In this document: one piece after another, positions 3,630 through 39,816 of the stretch
How the letters are laid out: every line of letters starts with the position of its first letter
Numbering within the stretch: the stretch's first letter is position 1
Assembly: GCA_902766005.1 (NCBI GenBank)
Contig: CACXCB010000039.1
Coordinates: forward strand, 1 to 64,000
DNA: 64,000 nucleotides
Source of the DNA: an uncultured Erysipelotrichaceae bacterium
Lineage (GTDB): Bacteria > Bacillota_I > Bacilli_A > Erysipelotrichales > Erysipelotrichaceae
Direction: 5' to 3'
Translations under genes and position numbers: made by a program
The notes under the pieces: generated by a model
What the model saw: only the letters and a program-made list of their open reading frames with translations
Databases searched by the model: none
What the model was told of the DNA's origin: nothing

Positions 3630-4578
3630 CTGCCATCTTCTCTCTTCTCTTTTGATCTGTTTCAATCCATTCATCCAATGTCAGCGGCTGATAATTGCTG
3701 AACATACAGAAACAGTTGATCATCTGACAGGGAATCTCTTCCAGTTCATCACCGTATCTGGATTTTCTTCTGGATTTCTTTGTGATCTGAATAAAGCGGT
3801 TGACCAGCACCTCATCATATGTGTTATGCACATGCCCATACAACATATATGTGAGCGGAACATCATCCGCCTTCCGATATTGTCCATTGTAACAGAAAAC
3901 AGGATAATGTGAGAGAACTACTTTGCGCTTGTTGTCGGAAATTTCCGCATACGGTTTCACCCATCTCAGTAAAGATCTGTCAAATTCCTTATCCTCCAGG
4001 TATTTATCATGATTGCCTTCAATCAGATACAGCTTGCCGTGAAGCTGCCGGATAATATCGTTTGTCGCCTTTCCTTTGGCAATCGAAAGATCACCGAGAA
4101 TATACACTTCGTCCTTTTTTGTAACCTTTTTGTTCCATTCCTCAATCATATGCCGATTCATTTCTTCATAACCGGAAAACCCACGGCAATCCATTTGACG
4201 GTTGAGAGAATTATGATAGAAATGCAGGTCAGATATATACAGCTTTCGGGAAGGAATTGTTTTTTCCTTTGCCTTCCATTGCTCCTTCCACATTTCCAGT
4301 TCCTCATCCGGATTCTCAAAATCATGAAAATACAGAGGGATTACAGCTTCCGGATCTTTTTCTTTCGTATAAATGCCAAAGTGTTTTTCCAATACGTCAA
4401 ACATTCCTCTGCGCCACAGCTGATAGATTGAAATACCTTTCACCAGCTGCTTTTTTGCATGTGTGTCCAAAGACGGGAGAGATTTTTGAATCTTCTGCAA
4501 ATCCTTGATTTCTTTTTCTTCTTTTGTCACTGCCAGCATAAAAGATAAAACTCTTTCAGCAGCATTATTTTCCTGCAT
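3613..4578 (-). CDS. Calcineurin-like metallophosphoesterase
   Basis: About 321 residues. The two-metal phosphoesterase motifs are in order: ISDLHFYH (DxH), YILGDLS (GD), LIEGNHDKY (GNHD), VVLSHYPVF (H) and LYGHVHN (GHxH). They occupy the C-terminal two thirds; the first ~110 residues are helical and unassigned. The frame opens at 4674, but a very strong ribosome binding site (AAGGGGGTGA) sits about 10 nt before the ATG at 4578, so that is the start, with a TTG one codon upstream as the only alternative. It is the first gene of a two-gene unit with the tyrosine phosphatase. Substrate unknown. Confidence 0.85.
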   Translation of the reverse strand: MQENNAAERVLSFMLAVTKEEKEIKDLQKIQKSLPSLDTHAKKQLVKGISIYQLWRRGMFDVLEKHFGIYTKEKDPEAVIPLYFHDFENPDEELEMWKEQWKAKEKTIPSRKLYISDLHFYHNSLNRQMDCRGFSGYEEMNRHMIEEWNKKVTKKDEVYILGDLSIAKGKATNDIIRQLHGKLYLIEGNHDKYLEDKEFDRSLLRWVKPYAEISDNKRKVVLSHYPVFCYNGQYRKADDVPLTYMLYGHVHNTYDEVLVNRFIQITKKSRRKSRYGDELEEIPCQMINCFCMFSNYQPLTLDEWIETDQKRREKMADDEGY

Positions 4579-7095: not shown

Positions 7096-8873
<1,778 letters not shown>

Positions 8874-8899
8874 CTTAATTATCTCCTTTTTCTATGTTT

Positions 8900-8927
8900 A
8901 TTATAGCATGTAAGCGTTTTCTATCAA
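8900..8927 (-). promoter_or_regulatory. Sigma-A promoter of the GH1 operon
   Basis: On the minus strand TTGATA (-35, 8922-8927), a 16-bp spacer and TATAAT (-10, 8900-8905) lie 27 nt upstream of the 84-aa gene. The spacer is filled by a cre box. Confidence 0.75.
8909..8922 (-). promoter_or_regulatory. CcpA cre box inside the GH1 promoter
   Basis: AGAAAACGCTTACA matches the cre consensus TGWAANCGNTNWCA at 13 of 14 positions (only the first base differs). It sits between -35 and -10, where bound CcpA would block RNA polymerase, so the operon should be repressed when glucose is available. Confidence 0.75.
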
Positions 8928-8936
8928 ACAATTTTC

Positions 8937-9917
8937 TTATTTATCTGCTGAAAAACGAATATTTGCATCATCTCTTGCCTTCTGCAGAACACCCATAACC
9001 GTCAATGTATCTTCCAGCCATGCATGCATCTGCACCGTGTTTTCTTCAGCAATAACCTTGGCAATCGTCACAAATTCCGTCTGCATCGGATTTGGATCTT
9101 CTGCAATATCGAGTTTTTGCGGATCTTTGTCATTAGCATACAAGGTGATGTTGCGAATCATGCCCGGCCTGCTGTCAACATGGATAAAACCGCCATCTCC
9201 CTGTATCATCATGCCGTTATTTGAAGCAGAATCCTTTGCTCCGCTGCATGTCACCAGGAAACCGGGATACCGCATCAGCAGAATCCCGCTGGTATCGATC
9301 CCGTTAAAGCCCTTGTTCGCATAGTAATGAACCTCTTCCGGTTTTCCAAGCAAGCCTTCGACAAAGTGGATATTATATACATTGATGTCATACAATGCTC
9401 CACCGGAGAGATTCGGATCAAATGCAGGTAAAACCTTCCCTTCTTTATATGTATTATATCTTCTGGAATACTGGGAATAATTACACTGTACCAGGCGGAT
9501 CTGACCGATCCTGTCAAGATTCTTTTTGATATTGGCATAGTTCTGAGAATATCTTGACATAATCGCTTCAAAAAGGTACAAATCCTTTTCTTTTGCAAGA
9601 GACACAAGTTCGTTTGCTTCGGCATATGTTGAAGTAAAAGGCTTTTCACAGATGACGTTTCTGCCTGCCTCCAGCGCTTTCTTTGTGTATTCATAATGCA
9701 GGCTGTTGATCAGGCCGATATATACAACATCATATGACCGATCCTGTAAGAAAGCATCATAATCCGTATAAATTGTTTCAATGCCATACTGCTCACAAAG
9801 AGGCATGCCCTTGTCCCTGTTTCTGCACCACAAAGCTACAGCCTCAATATCTGTCCCTTTGATGGACTCTAAAGCCGAAACAACGATTCCGCCGTTTCCT
9901 ACAATTCCTAATTTCAT
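8937..9917 (-). CDS. Gfo/Idh/MocA family NAD(P)-dependent oxidoreductase
   Basis: The 326-residue protein has an N-terminal Rossmann fold (LGIVGNGGI at residues 3-11) and the family motif CEKPF (~residues 89-93), whose Lys is catalytic. The C-terminal half is the beta-sheet domain of the family (the segment GGALYDINVY is characteristic). Members oxidise sugars, inositols or dihydrodiols; the substrate cannot be read from sequence. It lies upstream of the GH1 operon on the same strand, but the GH1 promoter intervenes, and a terminator separates it from thiT. Confidence 0.9.
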   Translation of the reverse strand: MKLGIVGNGGIVVSALESIKGTDIEAVALWCRNRDKGMPLCEQYGIETIYTDYDAFLQDRSYDVVYIGLINSLHYEYTKKALEAGRNVICEKPFTSTYAEANELVSLAKEKDLYLFEAIMSRYSQNYANIKKNLDRIGQIRLVQCNYSQYSRRYNTYKEGKVLPAFDPNLSGGALYDINVYNIHFVEGLLGKPEEVHYYANKGFNGIDTSGILLMRYPGFLVTCSGAKDSASNNGMMIQGDGGFIHVDSRPGMIRNITLYANDKDPQKLDIAEDPNPMQTEFVTIAKVIAEENTVQMHAWLEDTLTVMGVLQKARDDANIRFSADK

Positions 9918-9948
9918 TCGCTAAATCTCCTCGTTTTCCTAATTATAT

Positions 9949-9976
9949 CAAAAAAGACATCCCTTGAGGGATGTCT
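9949..9976 (-). terminator. Terminator of thiT
   Basis: AGACATCCC and GGGATGTCT pair around a 3-4-nt loop; on the minus strand six T follow. The stem overlaps the last bases of thiT. Confidence 0.8.
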
Positions 9977-10682
9977 AGGCAACAAATTTAACCTTTGCTT
10001 TCTGCAATCTTTCGATTAATAGCGGCACCACAAAGATGCATACAATCAAAGAGACAAGGTTATACCAGAGATTATAGCTTAAAGAAAATGCCCAGGAAGC
10101 AGGACTGCCCGGATATTCTCCTTCCGGCATCCAGTAATACACACCGGAAAGAACCTGCAGAAAATACTTCAACAACATCGCAATGACGATACCGAAACGC
10201 TTCTTTTCACTTAAATACCAGTAGACGAAGGCAAATGTTCCCAATGCAATCACACCACCTGCAATAAATGCAGCCATAACATGGCCATAGGAATTGATGA
10301 TACCGAAGAACGCTCCGGCCGCCAATAAAATGCCCATCGCCAAAGCGTCGATCTTACCCGGATTTTTAAACGGCCACAACAGGGAAGCTAAACCGCATGC
10401 AAGTAACGGTCCGACATAATCCAGAATAGTCTGGATCGGATAATAGATCCACATCGGAAAACCGAGAATCCATGTCATCAGCCATGACATCAGTGCGACA
10501 CCGGCGCCATACTTCCAGCCTAAATGGTAAGAAGCAATAAATACCGCAATCAGTTCCAGTTCAATGGAACCGCCGTTTGGCATCTGCAGAAACGGAATCA
10601 GATTACCAATCCATTTCAGGACAACGTACAATACTACATATAAAGCCATGTAGACAAGCTTTTGTGTCTGGTCTTTCTTCAT
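9975..10682 (-). CDS. thiT: Energy-coupling factor thiamine transporter S component
   Basis: The 235-residue protein is very hydrophobic, with six predicted membrane helices. The stretch PNGGSIELELIAVFIASY and the loop around GFPMWIYYPIQTILDY match ThiT, the substrate-binding S protein that takes up thiamine together with a shared ECF AT module encoded elsewhere. A TPP riboswitch directly upstream confirms the role. GGAGGTG precedes the ATG by 8 nt and can be buried in a hairpin controlled by the riboswitch. Confidence 0.95.
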   Translation of the reverse strand: MKKDQTQKLVYMALYVVLYVVLKWIGNLIPFLQMPNGGSIELELIAVFIASYHLGWKYGAGVALMSWLMTWILGFPMWIYYPIQTILDYVGPLLACGLASLLWPFKNPGKIDALAMGILLAAGAFFGIINSYGHVMAAFIAGGVIALGTFAFVYWYLSEKKRFGIVIAMLLKYFLQVLSGVYYWMPEGEYPGSPASWAFSLSYNLWYNLVSLIVCIFVVPLLIERLQKAKVKFVA

Positions 10683-10688
10683 AAAAAT

Positions 10689-10708
10689 ACACCTCCAATC
10701 GAAGGCGT
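10689..10708 (-). promoter_or_regulatory. Hairpin sequestering the thiT ribosome binding site
   Basis: On the minus strand ACGCCTTC can pair with GGAGGTGT around a GATT loop (eight pairs, two of them G-U), hiding the GGAGG. The competing pairing is CCTTACGC (10705-10712) with GCGTAGGG (10729-10736), which belongs to the aptamer, so ligand binding should free the sequestering strand. Confidence 0.6.
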
Positions 10709-10715
10709 AAGGAAT

Positions 10716-10802
10716 CGTTTTGTAAACTCCCTACGCTGGCATGATCCAGATCAGGTGATAAGGGTCTTTCTCAGCACTATGGCACCCCTGTTCACGCAAA
10801 CG
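10716..10802 (-). ncRNA. TPP riboswitch (THI element) upstream of thiT
   Basis: The minus strand carries the conserved THI-box blocks in order: GGGGTGC, CTGAGA, ACCC, then ACCTGATCTGGATCATGCC and GCGTAGGGA. P1 is formed by GTGAAC and GTTTAC plus CGTTT and AAACG. A promoter -10 TATAAT (10803-10808) with -35 TTCCAT 17 bp upstream lies just before it, inside the end of the neighbouring gene. No terminator hairpin follows; control appears to act on translation through the 10689-10708 hairpin. Confidence 0.95.
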
Positions 10803-10814
10803 ATTATAGCACAC

Positions 10815-11900
10815 TCATACTTCCCATGGAAGGTTTTTTCGAATTTCATTCCAAAATACATCTGAGGAATCCGAAGCAAATTTACTGAGTATTTCAGTGA
10901 CTTGTTTTATCTGCTTCCTATCTGTATCAGACAAAGCTTTTACGACTGCTTTAAATGTTTCAAACCGATGTTCGTCAATATCCTTGATGGAATGATATCC
11001 GGAAGCTTCCGCCACCTCAAAAATCGTATCAATAAATCTCTTTCTGTCCTTTAAGGAAATCCCTTCCAGCCATGTATCAATTGCCTCCTTAACAAACAGA
11101 GAATAACGTGACAATTCTGTCTCTTCAAAAGACTTTCCGAGAATTTGCCAGCTGTAAGGATCATGCTGAAGAAGTGATTTTTCATTGCTTTTCATGACTG
11201 TCTGCCTGGCATCATTATGCATGAGCTGTCCGATCACGGAATTCTCAGGTGCAAATCTTCTCATTTTCCATAACTGCTTATGATAAATATCTTTATACAG
11301 CATTTCATTCTGAAAGCCCGGTCCGTCAAACGAAACGATTTTCTGGATTTTATCCTGCAGCTCTGCGTGGCAATATGTTCCTGCATATATCGCAAGATTG
11401 CCACCTTTGGAATGTCCTGTAATAAATATCTTTTCACCATCACAGCCATTCAGATATTCTGTCGCTTCCAGCTGGGCAGGTGTCTGTTCCATACAGGAAA
11501 AATAGAAATCTTCATGCCATCCTGTCAAGGTAGGATCTGTTCCGCGATAAGCTATACAACATGTATGATCCCCCATCAAAAACGTCATGGCGGAAAACTG
11601 TATATTCTGTTCAGGATCCAGATGATTGACATAGCCGGAGACAATAATATCTTTTGTACGGACTGCATGGGATGCCTTTTCCAGTAAAGGTTTAGGATCA
11701 TATTGATATCTGGATTGGTCATATCCTGCCGCTTCATATCTTCTGTACAATTCTTCAATGGTGATATCCTCCCCTTCTGTCAATCCATCCATATTCGTAT
11801 AGGAAAGAATGGAGAATATAAGCATATCGATTTCATTTACCGGATCCTGCGCAAATAAAAGATCTCCGCGCCAGTCAAGATAATCCAATACATTTGCCAT
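10815..11900 (-). CDS. Mbeg1-like lipase/esterase family protein (DUF2974)
   Basis: The 361-residue protein has an alpha/beta-hydrolase core with the nucleophile elbow ITGHSKGGNLAIY (GxSxG at ~residue 158-162) and the upstream CIAYRGTD, both typical of the DUF2974 family. This family resembles class 3 lipases and is usually cytoplasmic in Firmicutes; physiological substrate unknown. The C-terminal ~120 residues are helical. It is the third gene of a PNPOx-like/91-aa/DUF2974 unit, starting 3 nt after the 91-aa gene. Confidence 0.8.
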   Translation of the reverse strand: MANVLDYLDWRGDLLFAQDPVNEIDMLIFSILSYTNMDGLTEGEDITIEELYRRYEAAGYDQSRYQYDPKPLLEKASHAVRTKDIIVSGYVNHLDPEQNIQFSAMTFLMGDHTCCIAYRGTDPTLTGWHEDFYFSCMEQTPAQLEATEYLNGCDGEKIFITGHSKGGNLAIYAGTYCHAELQDKIQKIVSFDGPGFQNEMLYKDIYHKQLWKMRRFAPENSVIGQLMHNDARQTVMKSNEKSLLQHDPYSWQILGKSFEETELSRYSLFVKEAIDTWLEGISLKDRKRFIDTIFEVAEASGYHSIKDIDEHRFETFKAVVKALSDTDRKQIKQVTEILSKFASDSSDVFWNEIRKNLPWEV

Positions 11901-11903
11901 ATA

Positions 11904-12179
11904 TCACCTCAGCATTTTCATCCATGATTCACTTCCGATGTCAATTTCATCCTCATAGTCATCAAAATCATTGTAGTAGACACAGGAAAGATACTTTTCT
12001 GCCTTGTCCATCCGGCACAATGCATAAACATAGTTGTCTTCATAGAATTCTCCCATCACGGTATCCGCTTCATACTGATGCGCAATAACATTGAAGACAT
12101 GAAAAAAAGCTTTATCGTCGAAACATTCTCCTTGAAACACTTTTTTATCTTTGACAATGATTTTATAGGCAGAAGTCAT
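11904..12179 (-). CDS. 91-residue protein of unknown function
   Basis: I do not recognise a family. The protein is acidic at its C-terminus (a DDYEDEIDIG stretch) and mixed alpha/beta in the first 60 residues, with two cysteines of no clear motif. No signal peptide or membrane segment. Its ATG overlaps the stop of the upstream PNPOx-like gene (ATGA) and the DUF2974 gene follows 3 nt later, so it is a genuine, translationally coupled middle gene of the operon. Confidence 0.65.
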   Translation of the reverse strand: MTSAYKIIVKDKKVFQGECFDDKAFFHVFNVIAHQYEADTVMGEFYEDNYVYALCRMDKAEKYLSCVYYNDFDDYEDEIDIGSESWMKMLR

Positions 12180-12778
12180 TTCCGATTTCTTCTTTCCTTG
12201 CGGTCCTGAATAATATCGGAAATATCGAAAGGTGTTTCATCGATTTCTTTCTCATAAACATTGATAAAAGGAACGTCTTCCTTTGTACGGATTGGGAACT
12301 CACTCTTGGCAGTCACATTTTCCAGCTTGCAGGTAATGACACCGATATAAATATTCGGAACGGTTTTTCTTTCCGACAGAGGCTTGATATCCCTGTGATT
12401 GCATGTATAGAGCAGATTGTATCCTTTTTCCCATGTTTCAGGATCCTCTTCATACTCCAGCATCTTCATTTCGCCTTTTGCGATCACACTGCGGTAATCA
12501 TGATAATGCCCCTTGTATTTGCGGTCAGGAAAATCATTGAAGATGCTGAAAGAAAGACAGACTCTCGGATCCCTTTCAAACAGGGAAACCTTTTTCCCTC
12601 TTTTGGTAAAATGGGTATACACAACCAGTTCATCTTCTTTCATCTCATAACCGAAACTTAACGGCACAACATACGGAAAACCATCTTCATCATTCACGCC
12701 GACCGAAACAATCATCATTTCATCCAGCATTGCCGCTATCAGCTCTTTGTCATATACTTCACGTTCAAATCGCAACAT
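12176..12778 (-). CDS. Pyridoxamine 5'-phosphate oxidase-like flavoprotein
   Basis: The 200-residue protein shows the FMN-binding split-barrel pattern: a short first helix, MIVSVGVNDEDGFPYVVPLSFGYE (first two strands), LVVYTHFTKRGKKVSLFERDPRVCLSF and the VIAKGEMKML strand. These are shared with NimA-like/PNPOx-related proteins that bind FMN and, in some cases, reduce small molecules; true PNPOx activity is unlikely. It heads a three-gene unit with the 91-aa gene and the DUF2974 gene. Confidence 0.8.
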   Translation of the reverse strand: MLRFEREVYDKELIAAMLDEMMIVSVGVNDEDGFPYVVPLSFGYEMKEDELVVYTHFTKRGKKVSLFERDPRVCLSFSIFNDFPDRKYKGHYHDYRSVIAKGEMKMLEYEEDPETWEKGYNLLYTCNHRDIKPLSERKTVPNIYIGVITCKLENVTAKSEFPIRTKEDVPFINVYEKEIDETPFDISDIIQDRKERRNRK

Positions 12779-34650: not shown

Positions 34651-34794
34651 TCATTCTGTTGATTTATATAGTTTCAATCCTTTAACAGCTTCAGGCATCT
34701 TTTCTTGATATGAATATTTTGAAGATGGACGATTGGCTGTCTCTTTAGCTGATTTAACGCAGATTTTCACTACTGTTCGAAATAATACATTCAT
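34651..34794 (-). CDS. agrD: AgrD-like autoinducer peptide precursor (47 aa, Ser core)
   Basis: A 47-residue ORF overlaps the end of agrB by 41 nt and has AAAGGAG 9 nt upstream, inside agrB, so it is translated from the same mRNA. It has the AgrD layout: an amphipathic N-terminus with charged ends (residues 1-20, VVKICVKSAKE), a small core around NRPSSKYSY (21-29) and a C-terminal recognition tail QEKMPEAVKGLK with the expected acidic residues and Pro. There is no Cys in the core, the normal thiolactone residue; Ser24/Ser25 would give a serine lactone, as in S. intermedius AIP and E. faecalis GBAP. It is too short for most gene finders. Confidence 0.7.
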   Translation of the reverse strand: MNVLFRTVVKICVKSAKETANRPSSKYSYQEKMPEAVKGLKLYKSTE

Positions 34795-35353
34795 TTTTCA
34801 GCACTCCTTTCCTAATTCGGTACTTTTGAAACATGCAAAGAACCATTAACCATGCCATTGCCATAAGAATCATACCCTTAGGGATTTGAGATCTAATGAT
34901 CTGTAAAAATAAATATAAAACCAATAGCAACGTGAGCCTGATTTTTGCATATATACTATAAAGACCTATTTCTTTAGCATTCAAAATCTGATTCTCATTT
35001 TGAACCGGGGAAACAACAAATAGATACATGAATGGAATCGTAATCCAACAATAATGTAAATTTGATACATATTTTTCAGCCAAACAGCTCAATATGACCA
35101 TGAAGATTGTAACCAATCCACACTGGATAAGTGTTTTGCAATGATATCCTCCACAATAAGATCTTAAAAATGTAAAACTGCAAATAAACACAACACCTTC
35201 TTGCAACTTGTGGAGGCATGCACACAAGAACAAAATAATCAGGGTTTCTAGCCAAAATGCAATTTCAACTTTTAAGCCATACAGAACGATATTAAAATCA
35301 ATTTGAAGTTCAGTAGAAGCATTGTGCAGTTTATCAACAAACCATTGCATCAT
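34754..35353 (-). CDS. agrB: AgrB-type autoinducer-processing membrane protease
   Basis: The 199-residue protein is membrane-embedded with about four to six helices. The AgrB catalytic pair is plain: the segment RSYCGGYHCKT has the cytoplasmic His/Cys (GGxHxKT preceded by a Cys) that cut AgrD at its C-terminus and form the ring. AAGGAG lies 11 nt before the ATG-ATG start. The -10 TATCAT (35378-35383) and -35 TTGCAT (35400-35405) sit upstream with a 16-bp spacer, and a direct repeat pair (35413-35445) lies beyond. The downstream agrD overlaps its end. Confidence 0.85.
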   Translation of the reverse strand: MMQWFVDKLHNASTELQIDFNIVLYGLKVEIAFWLETLIILFLCACLHKLQEGVVFICSFTFLRSYCGGYHCKTLIQCGLVTIFMVILSCLAEKYVSNLHYCWITIPFMYLFVVSPVQNENQILNAKEIGLYSIYAKIRLTLLLVLYLFLQIIRSQIPKGMILMAMAWLMVLCMFQKYRIRKGVLKNECIISNSSENLR

Positions 35354-35377
35354 CTATTTCGTATCTCCTTGAGTAAT

Positions 35378-35405
35378 ATGATAGGCATCTAAGAAACAAA
35401 TGCAA
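35378..35405 (-). promoter_or_regulatory. Promoter of agrBD
   Basis: On the minus strand TTGCAT (-35, 35400-35405), a 16-bp spacer and TATCAT (-10, 35378-35383), 24 nt before the agrB start. Only a weak -35, which suits a promoter needing an activator at the direct repeats just upstream. Confidence 0.55.
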
Positions 35406-35412
35406 TAGGAGT

Positions 35413-35445
35413 GGGACATTTGGTAGGCTTTTGGGATATTTGGTA
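35413..35445. repeat. Direct repeat pair upstream of agrBD
   Basis: GGGACATTTGGTA (35413-35425) and GGGATATTTGGTA (35433-35445) are 12/13 identical with a 20-bp period, between agrB and the divergent response regulator gene. On the minus strand they read TACCAAATRTCCC and lie 8 bp upstream of the agrBD -35. They share an ATCCC core with the repeats at 38592-38626. Two-turn spacing suits LytTR dimers. Confidence 0.6.
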
Positions 35446-35479
35446 AGATTTCCACACAAAAAAGAGGTATTATAGTTTT

Positions 35480-36178
35480 ATGAATATAGCCATATTGGAT
35501 GATGATATTATATTTCTTAATCTGTTTAAAAAACAATTATCTGCCTATTTGGATAATGATGTTCCATTAACATATACCAAACCAGAGAATCTTTTGACAG
35601 CCTTAAAAAACAGAGAATTTGATGTTATTTTTTTAGATATTGAAATGCCGGAAACTGACGGTTTGACAATAGCAAGACAATTATATCAGGATAATTGTCA
35701 TTCCATGATTGTTTTTATTACCAATCGCTCGGAATTAGTATATAAAGCTTTTGGATTAAACATTATTGGTTTTATTGTAAAATCAGAGATGAATGATCAA
35801 TTACCTCATGTAATGGATAAAATAAATACAGAATTACAGTCTATGCATTATATAACTGTTGAAACTAGAGAAAAAAGCAACCAGAAAATTCAAATATCTA
35901 ATATCTTATTTGGAGAAATTGTGACTAGAAAAGTCTTTCTTTATTTGTTGAACGGCAAAAGAATTGAACTAAAAACCAGAATTATTGGAGAAATTTACCA
36001 ATTGTTGCCTGAAAAACAATTCATTTTCTGTAACCGTTCCTGTTTTGTCAACATTAAAATGGTAGAAAGAATTACTGATTATCATTTATTTTTAAAAAAT
36101 CAAACAGATCCAATAGACATCAGCTCAGCGAGAAGAAAGGATATTAAAAATGCTTATTTTAATGAAAGATTTTTATAA
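35480..36178 (+). CDS. LytTR-type response regulator (AgrA-like)
   Basis: The 232-residue protein has a receiver domain (acidic DDD at 7-9, phospho-acceptor Asp53 in FLDIEMP, Lys in FIVKSE near residue 102) and a C-terminal LytTR DNA-binding domain (~135-232, with FCNRSCFVNIKMVERI). LytTR regulators bind 9-bp direct repeats about two helix turns apart. It is divergent from agrBD, and its putative promoter lies within the same intergenic DNA as the 35413-35445 repeats. The -10 candidate TATTAT is close to the start; the ribosome site AAAGAGG is 12 nt away. Confidence 0.88.
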   Translation: MNIAILDDDIIFLNLFKKQLSAYLDNDVPLTYTKPENLLTALKNREFDVIFLDIEMPETDGLTIARQLYQDNCHSMIVFITNRSELVYKAFGLNIIGFIVKSEMNDQLPHVMDKINTELQSMHYITVETREKSNQKIQISNILFGEIVTRKVFLYLLNGKRIELKTRIIGEIYQLLPEKQFIFCNRSCFVNIKMVERITDYHLFLKNQTDPIDISSARRKDIKNAYFNERFL

Positions 36179-37453
36179 TCCTTCTTTTAATATTGCTGTA
36201 GCGAAAAAATAGCCTTCATTAAGATTAACAATTAAAAATCCCCCATGTTTTTCGCATAACAAATTAACTGATTGTAATCCAATGCCATGGTTCTTATAAT
36301 CTTTTTTCCACGTCTCAAGTTCTACCTTTTTTTTATCCGTCGTGTTTTTTACATTTATTTCAAGACTAGTGTCTTCCTGGCTTATTTGTAGAATTATTTC
36401 TTTCTTTTCTTTGCTGATATTTTCGATTGCATTATCCAAAAGATTCCCAAGAATTAAAGCAATATCATATTCTGTTTCTTTAGAAAAATCTTTGATAGCT
36501 GTAATTGTTTTAACTATAATACCTTTTTCTTTTGCCTGGCTAACTTTCGAAGAAATGATTGCATCGATTGCTGTTTTTCCAGTATTAAAAATAACAGGTG
36601 ACTGTTCTAGAAGATTAATATCCATTTTTAACTGTTCTTGACATTTTTTTATTTCACCAGCGTCCAAATATCCGTTTAATATGGTGAACTGATTTTTCAA
36701 ATCATGTCTCATTGTACGAATTTCTTGTTCCTTCTTATTGAATTCTTCAGCAAAACGCTGAATGTTCGTCAACCGCTCTGCCAATAATTTATTTTCCATT
36801 AACTGAAAACTATCATACGTAGATTTGCAGAACAAATAATACGTTACCAATGATATTCCTGATATTAATAAATTGACAAAAACCAGTAAAAGGAAATGTT
36901 CCGATTCATTATAAATAACATTCTCAATAAGAGCTGTGATACCACAAAGAACCGCAAACAGAAACACAAAGAAAACTGAATACTGTGAATCCATTTTTCT
37001 GTATTTTTTTGAGAATTTGGCCATGGCAAGCATAATTATAGATAAGAAAAATCTCGAACAAATAAATCGATATATTACAGGTACTTGAATCAATGCCTCA
37101 CTTGCAGTAATTCCTAAAAAAGAGTAAATCAAAGTTAATGTTATTTCATTACCTGTGCTGATTAAAGTGTATAGCTGAATAATATATATTAAATTTGTAA
37201 ATGTATTATTAGCTTGGCTTTTATCTTCACAATAATGAGTAATAAAAAATGATAAAGCAATGAAAACAAATGAATATAAGCCATCGTAAATTCCAAAATA
37301 GTTAAATAATGTTATTTCAGAAGAAATAATAAAACTATAAATAATATAGAAATATATTTTTTTCTTTTTTTGTATATCTACAAATCTACTGATCAAGTAT
37401 GCATATAGTAACCCTTCTGCTATATTTATGCATATGTCCATCATGCCAATCAT
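36173..37453 (-). CDS. GHKL sensor histidine kinase, AgrC-like
   Basis: About 426 residues. The first ~230 are six or seven membrane helices, as in AgrC. The cytoplasmic part has the modified H-box RTMRHDLKNQF (His ~252 in the frame) and the GHKL ATP-binding elements LILGNLLDNAIENI and HGIGLQSV, with no canonical N/G1/F/G2 domain. This would sense a peptide and phosphorylate one or both LytTR regulators. The ATG at 37453 follows AGGTG by six. It overlaps the first regulator (6 nt at 36173-36178, convergent) and follows the second regulator in the XRE operon. Confidence 0.9.
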   Translation of the reverse strand: MIGMMDICINIAEGLLYAYLISRFVDIQKKKKIYFYIIYSFIISSEITLFNYFGIYDGLYSFVFIALSFFITHYCEDKSQANNTFTNLIYIIQLYTLISTGNEITLTLIYSFLGITASEALIQVPVIYRFICSRFFLSIIMLAMAKFSKKYRKMDSQYSVFFVFLFAVLCGITALIENVIYNESEHFLLLVFVNLLISGISLVTYYLFCKSTYDSFQLMENKLLAERLTNIQRFAEEFNKKEQEIRTMRHDLKNQFTILNGYLDAGEIKKCQEQLKMDINLLEQSPVIFNTGKTAIDAIISSKVSQAKEKGIIVKTITAIKDFSKETEYDIALILGNLLDNAIENISKEKKEIILQISQEDTSLEINVKNTTDKKKVELETWKKDYKNHGIGLQSVNLLCEKHGGFLIVNLNEGYFFATAILKEGL

Positions 37454-37458
37454 AGTTA

Positions 37459-38160
37459 TCACCTGTATTTAAAAGTATAATACATATTCTGGAATGATGT
37501 GAACAAATTTCTAGAAACTGATAAATGTATACCGGATTTTAAAATAATGATTTGTTTATGACAGGATTCTATTTCCTTCAAATTAACAATTTCCCCCTGA
37601 TTAATCCGAACAAAATCGAACCTCTTAAGTATGCCGGTTAACGAAAGAAACTCTTTCATACTCATCCTTAAATTTATATCACCATTCTTCGTATGAATAA
37701 TAAGGTTATTATGATTGCATTTAATGTACTCTATTTCACTCGATGAAATTTGAAATCTTCTATTCATTAATTCTAACGTAATATTATCTCTTGTTTCCTT
37801 TAGATACCTTCTAATCACTCTTTCCGTTTCTTCTTGAATTAAAGATTTTCGCAAAAAATCATATGCGTGATTTTGATAGGAAGAAAAAACATATTCTTCT
37901 ATTGATGAGACGAATACAATTTTTCCGATAGCCTCTCTAAATACTCTCTCAGATAGTTCAAATCCGTTAATTAATGGCATTTGTACATCTATGAAATATA
38001 AATCATAATCTTTAATTGTGCAAACCTCACCATTTGTGTAATAATCTGCATGAATTTCAATATTCATTTTTTCGGAAATTGAATGCAATAGAAGATGCAT
38101 CATATTTAAATATTCCGAATCGTCATCGAAGACGCATATTGTTATTTTATTTTTTTCCAT
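37459..38160 (-). CDS. LytTR-type response regulator, second copy
   Basis: About 233 residues with a receiver (FDDDSE, phospho-acceptor Asp ~58 in FIDVQMPLINGF) and a C-terminal LytTR domain (ISSSEIEYIKCNHNNLII, then GEIVNLKEIESC). It differs clearly from the 35480 regulator, so this is not a recent duplication. The ATG at 38160 overlaps the XRE stop by 14 nt; the ORF's 17 extra codons are unlikely. It lies in one unit: XRE regulator, this regulator, kinase. Confidence 0.88.
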   Translation of the reverse strand: MEKNKITICVFDDDSEYLNMMHLLLHSISEKMNIEIHADYYTNGEVCTIKDYDLYFIDVQMPLINGFELSERVFREAIGKIVFVSSIEEYVFSSYQNHAYDFLRKSLIQEETERVIRRYLKETRDNITLELMNRRFQISSSEIEYIKCNHNNLIIHTKNGDINLRMSMKEFLSLTGILKRFDFVRINQGEIVNLKEIESCHKQIIILKSGIHLSVSRNLFTSFQNMYYTFKYR

Positions 38161-38497
38161 GGAGTTTTCTGAATTGATCTGCCACAAGATTGAGAATGTA
38201 TATTTCTTCATCTGTCAAATCACTGTCATCTACTACAGGTCTTTTACGTGGTGATCCTTGTAAAAAAAACATATTCTCAAAAGTAACTTTATAGATTCTT
38301 AAGGCACTAGCAATATTATCATAGGACATATTACCATCCCCTCTCTCCCATCCTCCATATGTTCTGACTGTGACACCAAATTTATTTGCACACTGTTCCT
38401 GGGTATAATTATGTTGTTCACGATAATACTCTAAGCGATTCAATGGTGTCCGATCTGGCCTCTCATTTTTATTCTTACCCTTTTTTTCTTTTTTCAT
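38147..38497 (-). CDS. XRE-family helix-turn-helix regulator
   Basis: The 116-residue protein has a lambda-repressor-like HTH at residues ~18-75: LNRLEYYREQHNYTQEQCANKFGVTVRTYGGWERG is the classic XRE pattern. The first ~18 residues are highly basic (KKEKKGKNKNERPDRT). The last ~35 residues are an acidic helical tail. GAGGGTGAGGAG precedes the ATG by ~8 nt. It heads the operon with the second LytTR regulator and the kinase, so it is probably a circuit regulator, possibly autoregulated at the 30-bp palindrome just upstream. Confidence 0.88.
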   Translation of the reverse strand: MKKEKKGKNKNERPDRTPLNRLEYYREQHNYTQEQCANKFGVTVRTYGGWERGDGNMSYDNIASALRIYKVTFENMFFLQGSPRKRPVVDDSDLTDEEIYILNLVADQFRKLHGKK

Positions 38498-38591: not shown

Positions 38592-38626
38592 TTCGATCCC
38601 AAAATCGTTTATTTCAATCCCAAAAT
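38592..38626. repeat. 14-bp direct repeats at 21-bp spacing, LytTR-site candidate
   Basis: TTCGATCCCAAAAT (38592-38605) and TTCAATCCCAAAAT (38613-38626) differ at one base and are exactly 21 bp apart, two turns of DNA. The second repeat runs straight into the -35 of the secreted-protein promoter, matching how LytTR activators (AgrA at P2/P3) bind. It lies in the gap between the XRE operon and the secreted-protein gene, so it could serve both. Confidence 0.65.
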
Positions 38627-38912: not shown

Positions 38913-39006
38913 TGCGGAAAGATTGTTTGTTTGCTCCATATCATATATTACGAAGGAATAATTACTGATAAATAATTTAATGAAATTTTAGAAACGGAGA
39001 ATGTCA

Positions 39007-39816
39007 ATGAAAAAATTATTAAACAAGATAATTAAGCTAACTGCAATAGCTTGCTTAATCACAAACTTCATACCTGTTCATGCTGAAGAAATGAGTGGAA
39101 TTGAAATGTCAGCAAATTCCATCTCTGTAAACTCAAACACATTTCAAACACTTATAGAAAATGGGAATATTCCTAGAGAAGTTTTAGATTATATTATCGA
39201 AACACAAAGAACTTACCCAGATGCTGAGATCACAATCACATCAGATCTTTTACCTTCAGGAGAAGCTTCGCCCAACATTAATTATACTAATTTAAGAACA
39301 TATGGGGGATGCCAGCTGGCCGACTGGGTTGTACATGTTAGTACAGCACATAATATGCAAAATATCCTTACTGGGTCTTCAGCGGGAGGTTTTGCCCAAT
39401 ACCTGGCATATTATTTAGGTTCCTCCTTCATTTTTCAGAAGGTTCCCTTTGCCAGTGCTGCCATGACTGCTGCTGAATATATACTTAATACCAATGCCTA
39501 CACAGCAAAAGCTGGAGATAAATTAAATGCAGCACCTGCATATTCCACATATACAAAGTATACATACGTGAAATGGAATGGGAACTGGACTCTTGGCGTT
39601 CAATCATTTAACGCCACAGTTACGACAATATCTTGGTATTTGTATTTGCAATCTACGGGAACACAATATACAGCAACTAGAAGTTATAACCAGAATCTTA
39701 AAAGTTCACACTATAATTCTCCTGATTCAGCAGCTGTTCAAAATTATCAATCTGGAGGGATTATTGATACAAAGCCAAAAATAAAAATTGGTTCTGTCTA
39801 TTTCAACTTATATTAA
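39007..39816 (+). CDS. Secreted protein of unknown function, agr-linked
   Basis: The precursor has about 269 residues with a clear Sec signal peptide (KKLLNKIIKLTAIACLITN, then IPVHA with cleavage before EEM). The mature part has a hydrophobic middle (about residues 120-165: ILTGSSAGGFAQYLAYYLGS, then SSFIFQKVPFASAAMTAAEY) and a beta-rich, Tyr/Trp/Ser/Thr-heavy C-terminus. It has one Cys. The layout recalls the geobacillin-26-like secreted proteins, but I am not sure. The ATG at 39007 has GGAG 7 nt upstream and is preferred over the one two codons before. It is the only gene behind the repeat-bearing promoter, so it is the likely output. Confidence 0.75.
   Translation: MKKLLNKIIKLTAIACLITNFIPVHAEEMSGIEMSANSISVNSNTFQTLIENGNIPREVLDYIIETQRTYPDAEITITSDLLPSGEASPNINYTNLRTYGGCQLADWVVHVSTAHNMQNILTGSSAGGFAQYLAYYLGSSFIFQKVPFASAAMTAAEYILNTNAYTAKAGDKLNAAPAYSTYTKYTYVKWNGNWTLGVQSFNATVTTISWYLYLQSTGTQYTATRSYNQNLKSSHYNSPDSAAVQNYQSGGIIDTKPKIKIGSVYFNLY

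Follow-up and report, generated by a model that had tools for sequence, protein, structure and literature searches.

An agrB gene of an uncultured Erysipelotrichaceae bacterium is followed by a short frame that resembles agrD and whose product has no cysteine in its core, which raises the question of whether this frame encodes a genuine precursor of an autoinducing peptide (AIP) and, if so, which residue closes the ring of the signal. The agr reviews consulted (PMC12312760, PMC3673130) name no sources of lactone AIPs other than the S. intermedius group and E. faecalis. The window, which is the whole stretch of 64,000 nucleotides that was analysed, contains the features listed below, with the basis of each assignment in brackets; loci used for comparison carry L numbers.

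34651–34794, minus strand: agrD, 47-residue autoinducing peptide precursor, core without cysteine (sequence, profile, alignment)
34711–34725, minus strand: codons of the predicted five-residue ring Ser24-Ser25-Lys26-Tyr27-Ser28 (alignment with six relatives, profile register, TIGR04223 position 23)
34723–34725, minus strand: Ser24 codon, predicted ring nucleophile (as for the ring)
34754–35353, minus strand: agrB, membrane endopeptidase of 199 residues (PF04647)
34804–34810, minus strand: Shine–Dalgarno sequence AAAGGAG of agrD, within agrB (sequence)
35120–35122, minus strand: catalytic Cys78 of AgrB (alignment)
35141–35143, minus strand: catalytic His71 of AgrB (alignment)
35412–35451: predicted LytTR regulator site in the agrB–RR1 intergenic region, a direct repeat with a 20-bp period reading TACCAAATATCCCAAAAGCCTACCAAATGTCCC in the agrB sense (repeat search)
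35480–36178, plus strand: RR1, response regulator of the LytTR type, transcribed away from agrBD (PF00072 and PF04397)
36173–37462, minus strand: AgrC-like histidine kinase (GHKL; PF14501, 66 bits)
37459–38211, minus strand: RR2, the other LytTR-type response regulator, which overlaps the start of the kinase gene (PF00072 and PF04397)
38147–38497, minus strand: Xre-type HTH regulator, leading the HTH–RR2–kinase set (PF01381, 36 bits)
38592–38626: direct repeat ATCCCAAAAT upstream of the HTH gene, period 21 bp (repeat search)
39001–39816, plus strand: secreted-looking protein of 271 residues (open frame, divergent from the HTH gene)

The agrD frame and its partner AgrB

The 47-codon frame, translated as MNVLFRTVVKICVKSAKETANRPSSKYSYQEKMPEAVKGLKLYKSTE, overlaps agrB by 41 nt, and AAAGGAG precedes its ATG at a spacing of 9 nt; the coordinates and this motif bear out the frame, the overlap and the separate ribosome site described in an earlier note on this DNA. 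The same note had proposed an AgrD architecture with a cysteine-free core, and this also stands: Cys12, in the leader, is the sole cysteine, and a profile made only of AgrDs from other genera and the S. pseudintermedius AgrD ranks the frame first among the 1372 open reading frames of the window (E = 2.7e-4, with the next frame at 0.1). With the genus paralogues added to the profile and the peptide itself left out, E becomes 1.3e-11. Substitutions at codon positions 1, 2 and 3 among the seven agrD sequences of the genus, window included, number 283, 205 and 440, respectively. Judged by its sequence, agrD is under protein-level constraint and the 47-codon frame is a genuine agrD, presumably translated in this cassette. 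No model was matched by the window AgrD in Pfam and NCBIfam; the TIGR04223 search suggested in the earlier note thus gave no hit for the window peptide itself, and among its gap-free relatives the cut-off of 19 is exceeded by L004 (25 bits) and by L007 (34.5 bits), with L003 (15.7 bits) and L002 below it.

AgrB scores 83.8 bits against PF04647, for which the gathering cut-off is 23. Its His71 and Cys78, seven residues apart, are invariant in 61 of 61 aligned AgrBs, 44 with Ser/Thr-type and 17 with Cys-type partners, and the catalytic pair is therefore the same in hydroxyl-type and Cys-type enzymes. The nearest named records belong to Solobacterium sp. and to uncultured Erysipelotrichaceae metagenome-assembled genomes, two of the three Solobacterium records coming from sheep ileum and rumen; the contig search with AgrB gave five loci only, and the comparison rests on the genome search. 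No related solved structure was found by sequence. A phage or plasmid origin was rejected, since no AgrB relative was found in phages or viral contigs and the only plasmid-borne matches, on three clostridial plasmids, share 27% identity.

The ring residue

Six relatives align with the window peptide without gaps, three from the same assembly (L002, L003 and L004) and three from congeners (L007, L009 and L039); all adjoin agrB and each lacks a core cysteine. Their cores are SRKNL/FQEKLP, SKKGM/YQEEMP, SVKSS/YQEKMP, SWKGM/YQEDMP, STKTM/FQEPMP and SRKGM/YQEKMP, that of the window being SSKYS/YQEKMP (the slash marks the predicted cleavage site). Orthologues with a core cysteine, which the earlier note regarded as evidence against its proposal, were sought in the genus and none was found. 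All seven genus peptides keep Pro23, Ser24, Lys26, Gln30 and Glu31, and the most variable ring positions are 25, occupied by R, K, V, R, W or T across the six relatives, and 27; variation at these two positions beside an invariant Ser24 is, as far as alignment can tell, the pattern of specificity residues. Both AgrD profiles place Ser24 in the ring column. In gap-free alignments to TIGR04223, model position 23 is serine in L004, L007 and L010 and cysteine in L080, and in the S. pseudintermedius AgrD (sequence from PMC4774685) it falls on Ser27, the precursor serine forming the lactone in that species (PMC3673130); the window Ser24 was equated with this residue via the register of L004 and L007. 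Moreover, S24SKYS/YQEKMP fits the layout of AgrD, with the nucleophile five residues before cleavage followed by an x-[Q/E]-[P/E]..P tail. A ring that ends in a polar residue, here Ser28, is unusual, yet L004 shares this feature.

Because of the invariance of Ser24, the profile register and TIGR04223 position 23, the ring residue is taken to be Ser24 and not Ser25, so that the predicted ring, with ends assigned by homology, is SSKYS (Ser24–Ser28), cleaved before Tyr29. The earlier note had started the ring at Ser25 and proposed the product NRPS-SKYSY, an NRPS tail with a SKYSY ring resembling RIPT-STGFF. Ser25 is indeed present in the window AgrD, and the overall length is close to that of RIPTSTGFF, but this is the position that varies where residue 24 is always serine, the ring column of both profiles lies elsewhere, and STGFF followed by DEPEIP in S. 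pseudintermedius matches SSKYS/YQEKMP and not SKYSY/QEKMP. A ring through Ser25 is accordingly very unlikely and was rejected on the alignment and the profile register; the conserved serine that was expected among orthologues does exist, but at position 24.

Other departures from a Ser24 lactone fare no better. Release of a linear, ringless peptide by the AgrBs of this lineage would be compatible with a core without cysteine and with ring chemistry not being visible in sequence, but it is hard to reconcile with the retention of Ser, Thr or Cys at one position in 58 of the 58 distinct AgrDs found in the order, a count that profile detection, favouring conserved positions, may inflate; such a product is very improbable. 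A lactam through Lys26 would draw on the invariance of this residue across the genus set; outside the genus, however, lysine is mostly absent there while Ser/Thr is kept, and the ring would have three residues only. With its lineage-specific residue and tiny ring, the lactam was rejected and is scarcely credible. The chance that the cassette is decayed, or that the agrD frame is untranslated, is also very small: at the related locus L039, agrB carries a frameshift and the start of agrD is unclear, but in the window the reading frames of agrB, agrD, RR1, the kinase and RR2 are intact, and agrD has its third-position bias and ribosome site. The Ser24 lactone is thus preferred, and the window cassette is best described as a real agrBD with a predicted serine-lactone signal.

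As a separate observation, the L039 lesion (4001–4527; also L045 and L061) splits agrB into pieces of 115 and 133 residues, with an agrD behind that lacks a clear ATG, and reflects either assembly error or decay.

Cassette layout and proposed mechanism

The cassette is not a canonical agrBDCA operon: RR1 is divergent, the kinase, part of an HTH–RR2–kinase operon that comes after agrBD and RR1, is convergent with RR1, and an extra LytTR regulator and an Xre-type gene are present. RR1 occupies the same place at L004/L178, L005, L179, L183 and L184; the Xre-type gene also occurs in L178, L182 and L184, and the whole window set (RR1, kinase, RR2 and Xre) recurs at L178 and L184. Other arrangements include RR2–kinase–RR1–agrB at L179, RR2, Xre and agrB with no RR1 between them at L182, and a cassette without RR1 at L039. 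A later start for RR2, at an ATG at 38160, is possible. The protein encoded at 39001–39816 matched no family and has no second copy elsewhere in the genome; it is a possible target of the system, and its membership of the cassette is unsure. The assembly of the window (4.05 Mb, 366 contigs) holds six AgrB genes; given its 6.5% contamination, these parallel cassettes may not all derive from a single strain.

At L178, the second LytTR regulator (7360–7860, minus strand) is truncated at 166 residues, with LytTR-like sequence continuing in another frame. The same locus carries, at 8384–12694 beside a parallel Ser-type cassette, a small secreted protein, possibly an agr-controlled secreted product, together with a pair of ABC proteins for which TIGR03608 (lactococcin 972-type bacteriocin export) is the top NCBIfam model, with scores below its cut-off.

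A LytTR site consists of direct repeats spaced by roughly two turns of the DNA helix. The repeat between agrB and RR1 and that upstream of the HTH gene have TTTTGGGAT in common, and most cassettes have direct repeats at a distance of 40–60 bp upstream of agrB (p = 4e-6 when combined, the repeat having been first noticed in the window and L002 and then tested in the other cassettes); individually, those of L004, L009 and L039 are weak. Since their spacing fits, the repeats are predicted to be sites at which the LytTR regulators would bind.

Taken as a whole, the cassette probably operates as an agr-type peptide quorum-sensing system in which AgrB makes a Ser24 lactone, the kinase senses it and the LytTR regulators raise agrBD. 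The leader would hold AgrD at the membrane, where AgrB, through His71 and Cys78, would cleave after Ser28 to form an acyl-enzyme thioester, to be attacked by the Ser24 hydroxyl to give the five-residue lactone SSKYS, with a short N-terminal tail, of which Pro23 is the last residue, staying on the ring. A second protease may then trim this tail as the peptide exits the cell, and the AgrC-like kinase would sense the peptide and phosphorylate one or both LytTR regulators, which in turn would bind the repeat of 20 bp period between agrB and RR1 and increase agrBD transcription. The steps of AgrB cleavage and ring closure are established (PMC12312760), and replacement of the S. pseudintermedius serine by cysteine lowered signalling (PMC3673130). 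For the present cassette, we infer the lactone chemistry from register and conservation, the processing ends from homology, and kinase sensing and autoinduction from the layout.

The S. intermedius/pseudintermedius system (AIP RIPTSTGFF) shares with the window AgrB and AgrD, a serine fifth from the AIP end, a proline in the tail and serine at TIGR04223 position 23 (PMC4774685, PMC3673130). In contrast, it belongs to another bacterial order and has canonical agrBDCA, whereas the window agrBD, with its S-x-K-x-x ring, has two LytTR regulators, one of them divergent from it, and is accompanied by an Xre-type gene. In Fsr of Enterococcus faecalis, an AgrB-like protein also makes a serine lactone signal (GBAP), but the ring of GBAP exceeds that of the staphylococcal signal by four residues, and fsrD is contained entirely within fsrB (PMC3673130). 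Cys-type agr of staphylococci and clostridia has the same His/Cys pair in AgrB, leader–core–tail layout of AgrD and Q/E-x-x-P tail, and differs in its thiolactone cysteine; in the AgrB tree of the present order, the Cys-type AgrBs lie on the other side of one branch.

Predicted hydroxyl-type signals across the order

AgrBs were sampled from 295 genomes of the order and their flanks inspected for AgrDs. The distinct AgrDs found adjoining AgrB comprise 40 Ser-type, six Thr-type and 12 Cys-type peptides, a Ser/Thr to Cys ratio of 46:12 that is to be read with many AgrB loci having no recognisable AgrD and with a profile trained on a Ser-rich set. This tally suggests, from sequence, that hydroxyl-type signals prevail in the order; the earlier description of natural lactone autoinducers as rare does not hold for this sample. 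Outside the order, within the class, AgrDs are mostly Cys-type in a small sample in which the registers of L165 and L167 are uncertain.

In a maximum-likelihood AgrB tree covering 54 pairs from the order, one split, where shuffled labels need 11 changes, parts all 12 Cys-type from all 42 Ser/Thr-type AgrBs with support of 94/72 (unstarred), which may mark a hydroxyl/Cys division and is not conclusive. The Ser, Thr and Cys labels together need four changes on this tree, and Ser–Thr swaps occur within the hydroxyl side. It may be, although the proposal is tentative and falls slightly short of an even chance, that the Erysipelotrichales hold a separate AgrB/AgrD lineage for hydroxyl nucleophiles, making serine and threonine lactones, with several parallel channels in cells such as that of the window and with each cassette combining an AgrC-like kinase with a divergent LytTR regulator, in many cases alongside an Xre gene and another LytTR regulator.

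Several individual loci add to the variety of cores. Threonine stands at the ring position beside AgrB in L005 (1160–1825; RIP-TLKTA/WQP) and L008 (KIP-TLKTA/WQP), and further Thr-type AgrDs occur in L137 (ring TWIWM), L138, L144 and L149. A second, more distant agr class of the same genus (L016, L026, L032, L034, L035 and L064) has serine at the ring position in PSRxG[FY][FY]Q-type cores, such as SRSGY/YQPD and SRAGF/FQPD; its AgrDs score weakly and lie on the strand opposite agrB. The agrD core of L014, SCNHQ, keeps the ring serine with a cysteine directly after it, making the choice of ring residue ambiguous.

What gives these findings broader interest is the hydroxyl-type AgrB/AgrD lineage with its threonine forms; no description of Ser or Thr AgrDs of this order was found in the openly searchable literature. 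Should the proposal be correct, lactone AIPs would be the normal form across a whole order of gut bacteria, with threonine used as well as serine, and searches requiring a core cysteine would miss most of the signals of the order. AgrB may then be specialized for hydroxyl attack, and the order would offer a natural set of AgrB/AgrD pairs for probing what decides between lactone and thiolactone.
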